Source of the DNA: Pyrenophora tritici-repentis
Lineage: Eukaryota > Ascomycota > Dothideomycetes > Pleosporales > Pleosporaceae
Length of the DNA: 64,000 nucleotides
Direction of reading: 5' to 3'
NCBI RefSeq assembly: GCF_003171515.1
Contig: NC_089390.1
Span: forward strand, 4,898,001-4,962,000
Shown here: positions 43,028 through 55,724 of the stretch, piece by piece
Numbering within the stretch: the first letter of the stretch is position 1
How the letters are laid out: every line of letters starts with the position of its first letter
Position numbers and translations under genes: made by a program
The notes under the pieces: generated by a model
Told to the model about the DNA's origin: nothing
Seen by the model: the letters and a program-made list of their open reading frames with translations, nothing else
Database searches by the model: none

Positions 43028-44293
43028 CTAGACCCTCGGTACACCACCGGTCCCAAACAATTCCATCTTCACCCGCTCACTTGGTACGCCATAGCTTCTC
43101 AACTTGGCCTCTACGTCGAGCATGAACTGCGTGGGCCCGCAGCAGTAGTACTGCGTCTTGCTGTTGTCCGTGTGTAGGTACTTGCTATCGATTTGTTCTA
43201 GATTCACGCGTCCCTTGATGGAATAGTTATGGCCCTGAATTTCCCCTTCGATTGGATTCGACGAGTAGTACACGGTATGCACATTCTCGTTGCTTCTCGC
43301 GCATTGGTCGAAATGCTTCTTGAAAGCACGCGTCTTTGAGTTGCGTGCACCTTGTATCCAGGTAATTGGTCGAGAGGTCTTCTGCTTTGTTAAGGAGTTG
43401 AAGATGGATGTCAGAGCAGTAAGGCCTACACCTGTCGATATCAGGACAACAGGTGTATCTTGGTCGACTTCGCTAGCATCGAAGAAGAAGTCGCCAAATG
43501 GATGGGACACTCTTACAACGTCCCCTTCATTCCTCACCTCATGCAGTAGGTTCGAGATATATCCCGCCTGTGTCATGTACTTCGGCTCTCCAACCTCAAT
43601 TGCGGGTTCCCTCTTCACGCTGATTCTCAGATAACTCTTGCCTGGGGCATCACTCAAACTGTACTGTCGTGCCTGCCATACCCCACCATCCAGCTCGTCG
43701 ACGAAGACGTTGACAGAGATATATTGACCCGGCTTGAACATGGGCAGTTTGAGGTTGGCATCAACAGGCTCTAGGTAGAAGGAAGTGATTTCTTCGCTCT
43801 CTTTCTCTTTCTTGACAATCGTAAAATTCTTCCAGTCTGGCCAATATGAAGTCTCTTTGTACAAATCGTCCTCTTTCGCAATCATGATATTGGCCAGTTG
43901 CCAGTATGCCGCACCCCATACTTCTAATATGTCTGGTGTCGCGGCATTGCCCAACACAGTGCTCATGGTCTCCAAGAGATGCTTGCCGACGATATCATAC
44001 TGTTCAGGCCGGATGTACAAGCTGGCATGCTTATGGCAGATGAGCTCCACTGCTGGACTCAACTTTCCGAGGTCATCGATGTTGGCGGCATAAGCGTAGA
44101 GAGCTCCAGCGAGTGCTTGAGCTTGGTGTCCGGTCGCTTGATGAGTGTTGTTGAAGATATTTTGGAGTTCGGGATGTGCAGTGAGCATGTCCTCGTAGAA
44201 TCTTGTCGTAATAGCTGCGCCATATTCGGCAAGCACGGGGACCGTAGATTTAATCGTCTGTACTTGAGAGGGAGTCAGAGCGCTCATGTTCAA
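43028..44293 (-). CDS. yhb1: Flavohaemoglobin (nitric oxide dioxygenase)
   Basis: A single-exon frame of 421 residues, the normal length. The globin domain (1-145) has Tyr33 (B10 position, FYEDML), the distal region THQATGHQAQAL and the proximal haem His in CHKHASLYIRPEQY. The reductase half has the FAD-binding motif RQYSLSDAPG, GYISNLLHE, HPFGDFFFD, the NAD(P)-binding STGVGLTALTSIF, and the terminal YYCCGPTQFM and ELFGTG. It oxidises NO to nitrate using NAD(P)H and O2, protecting against nitrosative stress from hosts, bacteria or nitrate metabolism. There is no mitochondrial presequence, so it is predicted to be cytosolic. The start could be Met1 or Met3. Upstream, 44294-44300 onward is AT-rich. 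Confidence 0.97.
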   Translation of the reverse strand: MNMSALTPSQVQTIKSTVPVLAEYGAAITTRFYEDMLTAHPELQNIFNNTHQATGHQAQALAGALYAYAANIDDLGKLSPAVELICHKHASLYIRPEQYDIVGKHLLETMSTVLGNAATPDILEVWGAAYWQLANIMIAKEDDLYKETSYWPDWKNFTIVKKEKESEEITSFYLEPVDANLKLPMFKPGQYISVNVFVDELDGGVWQARQYSLSDAPGKSYLRISVKREPAIEVGEPKYMTQAGYISNLLHEVRNEGDVVRVSHPFGDFFFDASEVDQDTPVVLISTGVGLTALTSIFNSLTKQKTSRPITWIQGARNSKTRAFKKHFDQCARSNENVHTVYYSSNPIEGEIQGHNYSIKGRVNLEQIDSKYLHTDNSKTQYYCCGPTQFMLDVEAKLRSYGVPSERVKMELFGTGGVPRV

Positions 44294-49981: not shown

Positions 49982-49997
49982 CATACACTGTATTATC
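49982..49997 (+). repeat. 5' target-site duplication of the SINE-like element
   Basis: CATACACTGTATTATC, identical to 50544-50559, ends exactly where the tRNA-like head begins. Confidence 0.85.
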
Positions 49998-50094
49998 GGG
50001 GGGATGGCGCAGTGGTAAAGCGCCTGGTATTCCTTTACCGCACTCCAAATTTGCAGTGTAGTAGAGGTCGAAGGTTCGAATCCTTCTCCTCTCA
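49998..50094 (+). other. tRNA-like head of the SINE (not a functional tRNA)
   Basis: Acceptor-like arms GGGGGGA and TCCTCTC pair fully (two G-T wobbles). D-like arm GCGC/GCGC and T arm GAAGG-TTCGAAT-CCTTC are good. The anticodon arm is not canonical: TGGTA/TACCG pair around a six-base loop (TTCCTT), followed by about 29 bases before the T arm. This looks like a degenerated tRNA or a fusion rather than an intron-bearing tRNA. Confidence 0.7.
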
Positions 50095-50543
50095 CCGCCA
50101 CTTGTGGCTTTACCAAAAAATATCGAACGGCTTACTCCAACTCGCAAATTTTCACCTACCCCTGCAAACCTAAGCGACAGGTTATAGCCGCAGTACACCC
50201 GAGCCACGCACTGCTACGACTACAAACACTACGCTAAGCTTGTTACAACCCTACGCCTCGTTCAAGATCCCATGGCTTTTTCCCCTTTGAGGTTTTTTCA
50301 GACTTAGGAACACGAGGAAAGCGTTGCAAAAAGAGATAGGTTGAAGAGAAGGAAAAACAGGCAGCTATAATAGGGTTTTACTTTCTCTCCTCCCCTGTAA
50401 TAGCTAGGACATGCCTAAACTACATTAGTCAAACATAACCAACGAACATCAAAGGAGAGATAAAAATAGCTAGAATGGCATCTGCCACCGTCCTACATAG
50501 TCTCTGACTGATAAAGGACGCTAATGGATTACATACATACATA
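49998..50543 (+). mobile_element. tRNA-derived SINE-like retroelement, apparently full length
   Basis: The element begins at the first base after a 16-bp duplication, with a tRNA-like head of 97 bases (49998-50094). A unique body follows to about 50530, then a TACA microsatellite tail, then the second copy of the duplication at 50544. The head carries an RNA polymerase III A box (TGGCGCAGTGG, 50005-50015) and a perfect B box (GGTTCGAATCC, 50073-50083). This layout is the textbook SINE structure, mobilised by a partner LINE. The body is richer in G+C than the surrounding DNA. A caution: TTTTT (50279 region) and TTTTTT (50294 region) lie inside the body and could end Pol III transcription early. 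It encodes no protein. I know of no named family that matches. Confidence 0.8.
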
Positions 50544-50549
50544 CATACA
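50531..50549 (+). repeat. ACAT/TACA microsatellite tail
   Basis: Four to five ACAT units at the 3' end of the SINE-like element, running into the target-site duplication. Confidence 0.85.
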
Positions 50550-50559
50550 CTGTATTATC
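50544..50559 (+). repeat. 3' target-site duplication of the SINE-like element
   Basis: CATACACTGTATTATC, a perfect copy of 49982-49997. Confidence 0.85.
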
Positions 50560-50611
50560 TCGTTTTTCTGAAAAAAGGGAGGAGACGGACATATTTTGGG
50601 CTTCTTCAAGG

Positions 50612-50985
50612 TTTTTAGAAATAGAAGGAGGAAAGGTACTCAGTGGATTTTATAAATAGGAGGGAAAGAGAGGAGACGGACATCACGTCTGTGTTGGGGC
50701 GATTTTAGAAAAAGAAGGGAGAAAGTAGAGAAACGCATATGTCCTTGAATCGGTAGGTTTTAAGAATAGAAGGGAGGAAGCGCAGAAACAGACATCGAGC
50801 GCATACCCGTAGATTTTCAAAAATAGAGGGAAGAGAGTGCAGAACACAAACATTCATAGTGCCCACCCGATTTTTAATAAATAGTAGGAAGAAAGAGCAG
50901 AGACACACACATCACAGTTTCCCATGTGTTTTTGGAAATAAACAGGAAGAAAATGTGGTAAAGAAGAGACAGAGAAAGTCCACAG
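50612..50985 (+). repeat. Diverged tandem array, unit about 55-58 bp
   Basis: T-run cores start at 50612, 50648, 50703, 50758, 50814, 50871 and 50929 (steps 36, 55, 55, 56, 57, 58). The unit is (A/G)TTTTAGAAATAGAAGGGAGG-like sequence, then CAGARAC and GACAT. On the minus strand three or four units translate in one frame as related 18-19-residue peptides (frame 50705-50908). Confidence 0.65.
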
Positions 50986-52359: not shown

Positions 52360-55300
52360 TTAGCGGTAGTCGTTGGCGTTGTACGTAGGCCTGTTGTTTT
52401 GGTATCCTCCTCCACCGCCACCACCACCACCACCACCACCGCCGCCGCGATATCCACCTCGTCCGCCTCTGCCGCCACGGCCACCTCTGTCGTCCCGTGG
52501 TGGGCGGTCGTTGTATGCGTTGTTGCCTTGGTATCCGCCGCCGCCACCACCTCCCCCACTTCGTCCAAGGATCTCATCAGCAGGGCGGTAGAACCGCTCA
52601 TCCCTTAAGGAGCTGTTGTTGGGAGCTTGACGTGGTGGGGGTGCACCGTGATGCTGCGTGTTGCCCATCCAACCTCCCCGCTGTCCACCCTGGGGAGGGA
52701 CAGGCGGGGGTCCGTAACCAGGAGCACTATGACCTTGCCAACCACCTAGGTTAGGTGGGGGTACCCATCCGGGGGGAGGTGGAGGGAAGAAGTTGCCGCC
52801 AGGAGGAGGAGCAAAATTGGCACCGGGGAATGGTGGTGGGAAGTTGTGTGGGGGTGGGGGACCGCCGTAACCTCCCTGGTTGCCATTGTATCCGCCACGG
52901 TTGTTATCCCAGCCACCACCACCAGCTCCACGGCCATTCTGGTAGCCTCCTCGACCTCCGCCGTTTTGGTTCTCGCGGCGATCGTTGTAGCCTCCACCTC
53001 CACCTCCTCGGCCACCACGGCCACGACCACGGAAACCACCGCGCTCATTGTTGCGGCGCACCGATTCGGCCTCGCCGGGTTGGAGAGCTGGCTTGGGGAG
53101 CTTGACGCCTTCGAGCAGGACAGACTTGTGGGCGCGGCTTGAGCTGATGCTTGGCATTTCGTAGTATACTCTGCATTGTTATTAGTAACGCACAAACACT
53201 TTCATTTCACAGGAACATACCTCATTGAACGGTCTTGGGTGATTTCAAAATCTGTTGTGCCGTCGGCGTCAAAAGGTGGCACAAGTTGACTGTCCATGAC
53301 AAACAAATCATGCGGCTCAATGTCTCCATGGAGCGCACGACTCTTCGCAGGGTCGATCTTGTGCTTTTGTTGACCCTTGCGGTACAGTGCCTTTTCCACA
53401 TCATCAAAGAGACCACTCTCTTGTGAGAACATGAGGGTCTCCTTTCCAAACTCGTTGCGCTTCCTCTCGTCGTCGGAAAGCTCTGGGTACTTGGTTGCCA
53501 TGGCCTCCAGTAGTCGCTTTTCGTCGATGAAGGGCAGAACGGCAACACCCTGCCAGGCAAACTTCTTGCCGTTGAGATCGATGGGGAAGTCTTCAGGATA
53601 GAAGTCGACAATGGAGCTGTTGGGATCCTCCATGAGTACACGGAATGGCTCTGGGATGGCGTGGTTCGATGCGGCGGGCAAAACTCCCATCAATTGTTCA
53701 TAAGGATGGAAGGGCACGCCTTTTTCAAACAGCTTACGGGGGTCCATGTCTTCGAGACCGACAAAGTCGGCGGCAAAAGGAGCGTAGTGGTGAGGGAAGT
53801 ACCAAGTCCATGAGGGGCAGCCTTGCATATAGTAGGCCAACACCCAGCAGAGTCCCTCGGCGTACTGACGTGCGACCTTGTTGCGAAAAGCAATGTCGTT
53901 CGGCGCAACGTGAAACTTTTGCTCGTAGTAGCGCTCCTCATAACCATCTTCCCAAAGCATGATGGTGTCTTCTGGCGGACTATCGTCCTTCTTCGGAGGC
54001 TGAGCAGCCTGGGTCGGTGATTGAGGAACGACTGGGGTATTGCGGCCAGGTGTGCCGTTGTCGAGATCGTCCACCTCATCTAGCTTGCGCTTTCCAAGAT
54101 GGACTGGTGTTTCCGTACCAGACGCAGATTCTGAAGCAGGCTCAGAGTCTGGTGTTGGCTCAGGCTCAGGCAGAGATGTGCCATCGGCCTTAGCCTTCAA
54201 CATCTCCTTGAGGCGGGCTGCCGCGCTCTTGTTGGATTGACTATCACGAGAGTGCATAATGTCTTTGTGTACATCACGCACTTCCTTTGATTGCGCATCC
54301 TTGGGATCGAAGAACACGATACCTGCACTGGTGTAGGTGTCGGTAGTCTCCTTGGCGCGCTTGAACCCAGGCGCTGAAACGCCGTCGTTGTCTGTACGTT
54401 GACGCTTGTGCGCATTGCTCTGGGCTTCACGTCGAGCCCTATTTGCTGCCTGGCGATCGGCAACTTCCTTTCGCTTCTTGAAAATACCAGCCTCTCTGCT
54501 GGCAAGGGCGGACATGATTTGTTGTACACGGCGCATATCGGGGTAGCCGTCTTTGGTCACATAGTCATCCATCTCAGCAGCGAGATCGCGCCAGATGCTG
54601 ATCAACAAGTCGATACCTTGATCTCGAATCTCAAGACTGGGCAAATGTGGCAGGAAATCGTTACCGACAAAGAAACACATAAAGACCCAGTCGTCGAGAG
54701 AGCGTTCTAAGTCATACTTGAATGTGCGTTTGGGCGTGTCCATTTCGACAGCCAGATACTCGCGCAGGACGTTGGTGTGCAACCAAATGTATGGTTTGAG
54801 TTGATGTTCAGATGTGGCCCACTCCTCAGCAGCTTCTTCTTCGGTAAGCTTCTTCTCGTCTTCGGGAAATTCACAGTTTGTTCGAATATGTCCTTTGCGG
54901 CCACAACGAGTGCAGACCTTGTCCTTGCCTGAGTCGTAGAAGACATCTTCTCGAAGGACTTTGAAATGGGGCTCATGGGTAGCAAGACTCAACATGATCA
55001 AGTCGGCGTCCAAGCCGTAGATGACGTGCGAAGTGTTGGGGTCATGTGTGGGCATAGCGCGCTGCGAGCGAATGAAGTTCATAATCTTGTGTTCTCCTTC
55101 ACCAGGCACAGATGCATCAGAGATGATGACTTTCATGTCCTTCCACGAGGGGTCGGTTGTGAACTTGTAAGCACACCAGTATTGAAGACTCTCGGCAAGA
55201 AGATGCATGAAAGGTGTACCGGGTGTAATTGCATTCGAGTCCCAAGTCTTCTCCACGACCTCCTCAAGCGTGTTGATGTCTTCGCCGCGACTTGCTTTTT

Positions 55301-55724
55301 GTGAGTTGAGTATCTTCTGGAACTCTGCACGTTCCTCATCCTTCTCTTTGGCTTCACGAGCGGCACGGAAACGTCGCGATCGCTGTTGGTTCATCTTGGC
55401 ACGTGGCGCAACACCGTCGACGGCCATGTAGAGCAGCTTGCGAGGGCGGACCATGCCGACAACGCGGTCAGTGTATTCAAAGATGGCCATCATCATATCA
55501 GCCTCAGTTTTGGGCGCAGGCTTGTCTTCAGGATGCGAACAAGGATGTACAATGCCGTTCATATCGAGATATAGGTTGTCGAACTCTTCGCCATTTGGGT
55601 TGGGTCCGGTACGATCTACGGGTATGACGGCATCGCCGACCTTTTTTGGCAATTCTTCTTGCACGGTAGATACGATCTTTGGGTATTTCTGGCTGAGCCA
55701 GCGGAACATGGCGGGGACACCCAT
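52360..55724 (-). CDS. rat1: 5'-3' exoribonuclease 2 (RAT1/XRN2)
   Basis: Exon 1 (55724-53221) and exon 2 (53170-52360) join across a 50-base intron with a TTACTAATAAC branch site, giving 1104 residues; the splice makes MRVYYEMPS, a conserved XRN2 segment. The N-terminal nuclease domain starts MGVPAMFRWLSQKYPKI and contains the acidic active-site elements (YLDMNGIVHPCSHPED, AVDGVAPRAKMNQQR, ISDASVPGEGEHKI, YGLDADLIMLSLATHEPH). A CCHC zinc knuckle (CTRCGRKGHIRTNC, about residue 266), often present in fungal Rat1, follows. The second conserved region runs to about 840. The last 240 residues are Arg-Gly-Gly and Pro/Gly-rich. Rat1 degrades 5'-monophosphorylated nuclear RNA, trims rRNA and snoRNA precursors, and drives torpedo termination of RNA polymerase II. 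The gene shares a promoter with USO1. Confidence 0.97.

Follow-up and report, generated by a model that had tools for sequence, protein, structure and literature searches.

A tRNA-derived SINE family of Pyrenophora tritici-repentis and its likely LINE partner

In this study, a full-length tRNA-derived SINE of subfamily A was identified at 49998-50545 on the plus strand of the window, the 64,000-nucleotide stretch of Pyrenophora tritici-repentis DNA that was analysed. Very probably the element parasitises a resident LINE encoding endonuclease, reverse transcriptase (RT) and RNase H. We base this reading on the sequence, in which LINE and SINE have homologous 3' ends with compensatory base pairs, tails share bases with their targets, copies lie between individual duplications, some copies are 5'-truncated, and few or no differences separate one copy from another.

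Results

Anatomy and boundaries of the element

An earlier note, made from the letters of the window, had described a full-length tRNA-derived SINE with an A box, an exact B box, a TACA tail and flanking repeats. Every part lies where it had been placed (Table 1), and the identification is borne out by the boxes, the match to a tRNA model, 44 copies of the head in the genome and the individual duplications. The A and B boxes, assigned by what we take to be the Pol III box consensus, lie within the tRNA-like head, as is characteristic of a SINE, and no ORF of at least 110 aa overlaps 49998-50543. The length of about 546 bp had been called unusual, which it is not, since fungal SINEs of 700 and 800 bp are named in the passages of PMC5063351 used here.

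The sequence CATACACTGTATTATC is present at both 49982-49997 and 50544-50559 and had been taken as a perfect 16-bp target-site duplication. The two repeats are indeed identical, but their length is inflated by overlap with the tail: the opening bases continue the TACA repeat in register, and 9 bp (TGTATTATC) lie beyond it, so that the 16-bp duplication at face value was rejected. Since the longer version overlaps the tail repeat, a duplication of about 14 bp is the likelier reading; with a start at TA, seen in 11 of the 21 A and A' duplications, it would be the 14-bp TACACTGTATTATC. Its exact boundary inside the repeat is ambiguous.

Table 1. Parts of the SINE and their positions in the window
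Feature	Position	Strand	Remark
Left target-site duplication, 14-bp reading	49984-49997	+	16-bp reading begins at 49982
tRNA-like head, four-arm cloverleaf	49998-50094	+	Rfam RF00005, 40.4 bits; fold
Pol III A box TGGCGCAGTGG	50005-50015	+	
Extended anticodon-arm hairpin	50032-50067	+	7-bp basal stem, paired in all of A, A' and B
Pol III B box GGTTCGAATCC, exact	50073-50083	+	
Central conserved core	50259-50317	+	A' vs B 88% in two overlapping 40-column windows
T5 run in core	50277-50281	+	
T6 run in core	50293-50298	+	
LINE-derived 3' region	50401-50528	+	74% to LINE2 3' UTR, 129 aligned columns
3' hairpin 1 (UGGCA/UGCCA)	50476-50487	+	
3' stems 2 and 3 (CGUCCU/AGGACG around AGUC-UCU-GACU)	50489-50520	+	
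TACA repeat tail	50530-50549	+	End overlaps right duplication
Right target-site duplication, 14-bp reading	50546-50559	+	16-bp reading begins at 50544

The element is intergenic. Its closest neighbours among ORFs of at least 250 aa lie at 43028-44293, presumably a flavohaemoglobin, and at 52360-53157 and 53202-55724, which we take to belong to a 5'-3' exoribonuclease. Directly downstream, at 50560-50900, a purine-rich motif seems by eye to return at intervals of some 60 bases (GGAGACGGACAT ... TTTTTAGAAATAGAAGG); no repeat was called there by Tandem Repeats Finder.

The tRNA-like head

The head of SINE A scored above the gathering score of 29 for the Rfam tRNA model (Table 1) and that of SINE B reached 46.1 bits, and for the SINE sequences searched all Rfam families besides tRNA fell far below their own gathering scores. 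ARAGORN, run at its defaults, reported no tRNA anywhere in the 64-kb window. The SINE A head adopts a cloverleaf fold whose anticodon arm is a long hairpin (9 of 200 shuffles were equally stable), and the fold of the SINE B head was matched by 2 of 200 shuffles. The non-canonical anticodon arm noted earlier is thus real, the extended hairpin measuring 36 nt in A and 26 nt in B; between A' and B its basal stem shows one two-sided change, from A-U to G-C, and all pairs remain standard. A tRNA-gene scan gave 62 matches from the best 63 of 1172 candidates scored, among which 21 were neither a SINE head nor on the mitochondrial contig, and none of the 20 of these tRNA genes that were compared was clearly closest as a parent.

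Copies, subfamilies and age

The genome of 40.9 Mb in 41 contigs was searched with a 27-base head pattern in which three ambiguous positions absorb the differences between subfamilies and up to three mismatches are allowed. It gave 44 matches, all without mismatch, against none for the reversed control, which rules out a single-copy sequence or an artefact. Judged by their letters, these intact heads comprise 13 of A type, 9 of A' and 22 of B, the window copy belonging to A, A' being about 96% and B about 67% identical. A core pattern found 48 matches, all exact, again with no match for its control, and neither pattern picked up a moderately decayed copy within the reach of three mismatches, beyond which worse copies would escape.

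Without their tails, the A bodies are identical in 11 of 11 copies over 532 bp, and the 10 A' bodies show 0 to 15 differences, with L029 as the outlier at 15. The B bodies differ by three single-base indels and by no substitution, a statement that holds for the 15 copies fetched from the 22; nine core-bearing B copies were left out, among them one with 98% identity to the B query, another split into pieces of 99% and 97%, and two more that are 5'-truncated, so that B is not perfectly uniform. Such near-identity implies recent spread and agrees with the young insertion proposed earlier, and the proposed search for many copies with different duplications likewise succeeded. Since two of the subfamilies stand 33% apart, each being nearly uniform, and no decayed heads were seen, a recent arrival in the lineage and a rapid loss of old copies are both compatible with the data. 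The near-identical copies should serve as presence/absence markers between isolates.

Copies of A or A' lie 1.4 to 3.8 kb from B copies in at least three places (L018, L020, and G000 C2:3633033 with C2:3636787). At L031:529-1242 a SINE copy is interrupted at base 228 by some 170 bp of other sequence, with TATACTCAATA on both outer sides.

Target-site duplications and tail-target matching

Duplications and microhomology were counted in 38 of at least 48 known copies, with L031 (split) and L032 (a 113-bp end) excluded as broken. Exact target-site duplications of 12-17 bp, with a mean of 14.2, flank 35 of the 38 when up to two stray bases are allowed at the head junction. Outside the 35 are L029, whose 14-bp duplication was missed by the tail rule, L027, which has a 14-bp duplication and five extra bases before the head, and L045, whose duplication is imperfect. 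The extra bases of L027, TCTCA near 503, stand between the left duplication and the head and are possibly untemplated or a product of second-strand repair. Two copies truncated at the 5' end, L028 at position 62 and L030 at position 83, are both still flanked by duplications.

A segmental repeat, or a DNA transposon with a chance tRNA-like stretch, would account for the dispersed copies and for nothing more. The tail repeats of variable length, the 5' truncation, the duplications of 12-17 bp in register with the tail and the 3' homology to a LINE all speak against such an origin, which we regard as extremely improbable.

Tail and target share 3.09 bases on average, against 0.34 when tails are set at random flank positions (maximum 0.83 in 2000 draws), which points to annealing-primed integration; microhomology is zero in three copies, all of them A' (3 of the 9 counted). 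Of the 35 duplications, 24 have the dinucleotide TA at offset 0 or 1 (7/12 in A, 4/9 in A', 13/14 in B), against a null mean of 4.3 and maximum of 13 in 5000 draws, and the other 11 lack it at these offsets. Among the 24, TA is preceded by C in 17 cases and by T in 5, and followed by C in 16. In subfamily B the C that precedes TA is part of the tail as well, so that tail pairing and endonuclease preference are confounded. The tails themselves differ, being TACA or, in B, ACT in the SINEs and AAT in the LINE, and each offers UA.

We propose, as a model that goes beyond these counts, that the SINE RNA would start at the internal Pol III promoter of the head and that the LINE protein would bind the shared 3' stems. 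The LINE endonuclease would prefer a bottom-strand nick at TA/R (the slash marking the nick), leaving an end ...TA-3', which may anneal to the UA-containing repeat at the 3' end of the RNA and prime cDNA synthesis; a second-strand cut 12-17 bp away would then give the duplication. The last three steps draw support from the sequences.

The LINE partner and the shared 3' end

Comparison of the 3' tail with resident LINEs, suggested in the earlier note, led to a partner with 3' homology and an endonuclease, RT and RNase H frame. A 20-base 3' motif gave 271 genome matches with up to three mismatches, against 10 for the reversed pattern, and the 30 loci cut out of this search comprise 12 SINEs and 18 LINE 3' ends. 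Of the 18 LINE ends, 17 carry an AAT-type tail (L104 has no tail), and 13 lose their similarity to the LINE within the 1.5 kb retrieved, a pattern expected from 5' truncation or rearrangement. Two subfamilies, LINE1 and LINE2, are about 81% identical in DNA. SINE A was aligned with the 3' end of LINE2 (Table 1); SINE B is 85% identical to LINE1 over 71 columns and 71% to LINE2 over 140. Even without the stems, the 73 nt at SINE 50403-50475 score 34.0 bits against the LINE 3' ends, the maximum of 200 mononucleotide shuffles being 28.3.

One LINE1 frame of 1311 aa carries endonuclease, RT and RNase H domains (Pfam), and their presence in one long frame, here seen in this one, is a trait of the Tad1 clade. 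Open LINE frames of 1302-1315 aa exist, and among the matches listed at least 15 frames of 1300 aa or more lie on C1-C10, 8 of LINE1/2 and 7 of LINE3, a lineage about 66% identical in protein. A LINE frame on contig C6 is 100% identical to the Pyrenophora tritici-repentis protein PtrM4_112750 over the 421-residue region searched, and the named close relatives of the LINE frame are hypothetical proteins or reverse transcriptases, mostly from ascomycetes.

The 3' stem-loop has been retained by compensatory changes at two pairs across six sequence types, with stems set by hand because the MAFFT alignment shifted hairpin 1 of SINE B by one base. Pair 4 of stem 1 is C-G in LINE1, LINE2 and SINE B, A-U in SINE A and U-A in LINE3; at pair 1 of stem 2, both SINEs have C-G where every LINE compared has A-U; the inner stem AGUC/GACU is invariant across the sequence types compared. 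The fold of the 3' end was equalled by 1 of 200 shuffles for SINE A and by 0 of 200 for LINE1. The same 3' stems with an ACC inner loop were seen in L127 and L128, both LINE3.

Another RT source such as LINE3 might mobilise the copies, in which case the likeness to the LINE1/2 3' end would reflect ancestry only. LINE3 has frames of up to 1315 aa with many equal-scoring copies among the matches listed, its 3' fold is similar, and the GAUA after its inner stem is nearer to SINE A than the LINE1/2 counterpart is. However, the inner loop is UCU in the SINEs and LINE1/2 and ACC in LINE3, which favours LINE1/2 as the putative partner, and we hold mobilisation by another source to be very unlikely. 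The LINE's own integration is thinly documented, since clear duplications, of 15 and 13 bp, were found in 2 of the 13 LINE copies examined.

On C1-C10, 24 of 70 LINE-protein matches lie within 100 kb of contig ends, which make up 5% of the sequence (binomial p ~2e-14); this count was taken from the best 75 of 352 candidates scored, includes a few LINEs twice as pieces, and concerns contig ends that are not necessarily telomeres. SINE heads show no crowding near contig ends (2 of 44).

The conserved core and transcription

Between A' and B the bodies are 33-62% identical in 40-column windows outside a mid-body core of about 59 bp, which stands out against them (Table 1). In 39 of 39 fetched core-bearing copies this core holds a T5 run plus a run of T6, T7 or T8. 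These possible Pol III terminators were unexpected, and they count against the main explanation because Pol III might halt there, short of the LINE-derived end. Fungal Pol III presumably requires longer runs of T than its human counterpart. According to PMC8466645, T5 is an effective terminator of Pol III in human cells. If the fungal enzyme behaves like the human one, most transcripts would stop at about base 300 and lack the LINE-derived end, so that either read-through is sufficient, or the long RNA is a Pol II product, or the short RNA is important itself.

The second of these possibilities amounts to an alternative in which the RNA that is copied is a full-length Pol II product, arising by read-through out of neighbouring genes or from some other promoter, the head and T runs give a separate Pol III RNA of about 300 nt, and the same LINE carries out integration. 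The presence of both T runs in all 39 copies, within the best-conserved stretch of the body, and the efficiency of T5 in human cells would suit this origin. On the other hand, the full-length copies examined begin at the first G of the head with at most one stray base (five in L027), which is what Pol III initiation predicts, whereas read-through RNA would carry flanking sequence; moreover, Pol III read-through may suffice if the fungal enzyme needs longer T runs. A Pol II origin thus seems unlikely to us, and transcription from the Pol III promoter of the head is the reading we prefer. With Pol III as the polymerase, the T-rich core might be a functional internal terminator, giving abundant head RNA of about 300 nt and rare read-through RNA that alone would carry the LINE-binding 3' end. 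We put this forward tentatively, as a rather unlikely idea; if true, the rate of transposition would be governed by termination efficiency, and a separate function for the short RNA is conceivable.

Discussion

Fungal SINEs that join a tRNA head to a LINE tail form an established kind, as the passages of PMC3747384 and PMC5063351 cited here make clear. As far as our searches show, the Pyrenophora SINE is a new family within that kind: a literature search limited to open-licence papers, without Repbase, found no paper on a SINE of Pyrenophora, and the word SINE is absent from the main text of the paper on the genome of isolate M4 (PMC5913888). To the established kind the present analysis adds a likely LINE partner, compensatory pairs, a measured matching of tail and target, and a core with T runs. 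One genome here combines the same LINE-type 3' structure with three tail repeats (AAT, TACA and ACT), which amounts to a natural experiment, and together with many near-identical SINEs and long LINE frames it makes two questions testable, namely whether pairing between tail and target determines where the element inserts, and how full-length RNA arises from a Pol III-type element despite internal T runs.

A conserved central domain is known from the CORE, V and Ceph SINEs and from HaSE1/2. The Pyrenophora core resembles these in being a conserved block amid diverging bodies, here known from two subfamilies of one genome.

A 3' end common to the SINE and a LINE of the same genome, as found here, is one mark of stringent-type SINE/LINE pairs. 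The 3' hairpins of plant L1-clade SINEs and LINEs, as far as PMC3747384 is drawn on here, are alike in their compensatory stem, conserved 5'-UCU-3' loop and, presumably, stringent-type recognition; they belong to a different LINE clade, however, and the likeness of the loop may be chance. The UCU loop of the Pyrenophora SINE lies at 50503-50505.

Among fungi, the same portion of PMC3747384 pairs Mg-SINE with MgL/MGR583 in Magnaporthe and SINE2-1_BG with Tad1-24_BG in Blumeria, and by their table description these are likewise fungal tRNA SINEs with LINE-derived tails. In the passages of PMC5063351 cited here, AfuSINE2-1a of Aspergillus fumigatus is paired with the Tad1-type LINE I-1_AF / I-4_AO. 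The hairpin motif TCTCTGA does not occur in the main text of that paper, which prints AfuSINE2-1a. The Aspergillus element differs in being 370 bp long with at least four copies, and the AfuSINE2 heads are described there as having no cloverleaf fold, whereas the Pyrenophora heads fold as cloverleaves. The two nevertheless share a tRNA-related head, a 3' end resembling the 3' UTR of a Tad1-type LINE, a duplication (14 bp in AfuSINE2-1a) and, as read from the printed sequence, extra bases in the anticodon region, and the ACT repeat tail of AfuSINE2-1a is the tail type of Pyrenophora subfamily B.
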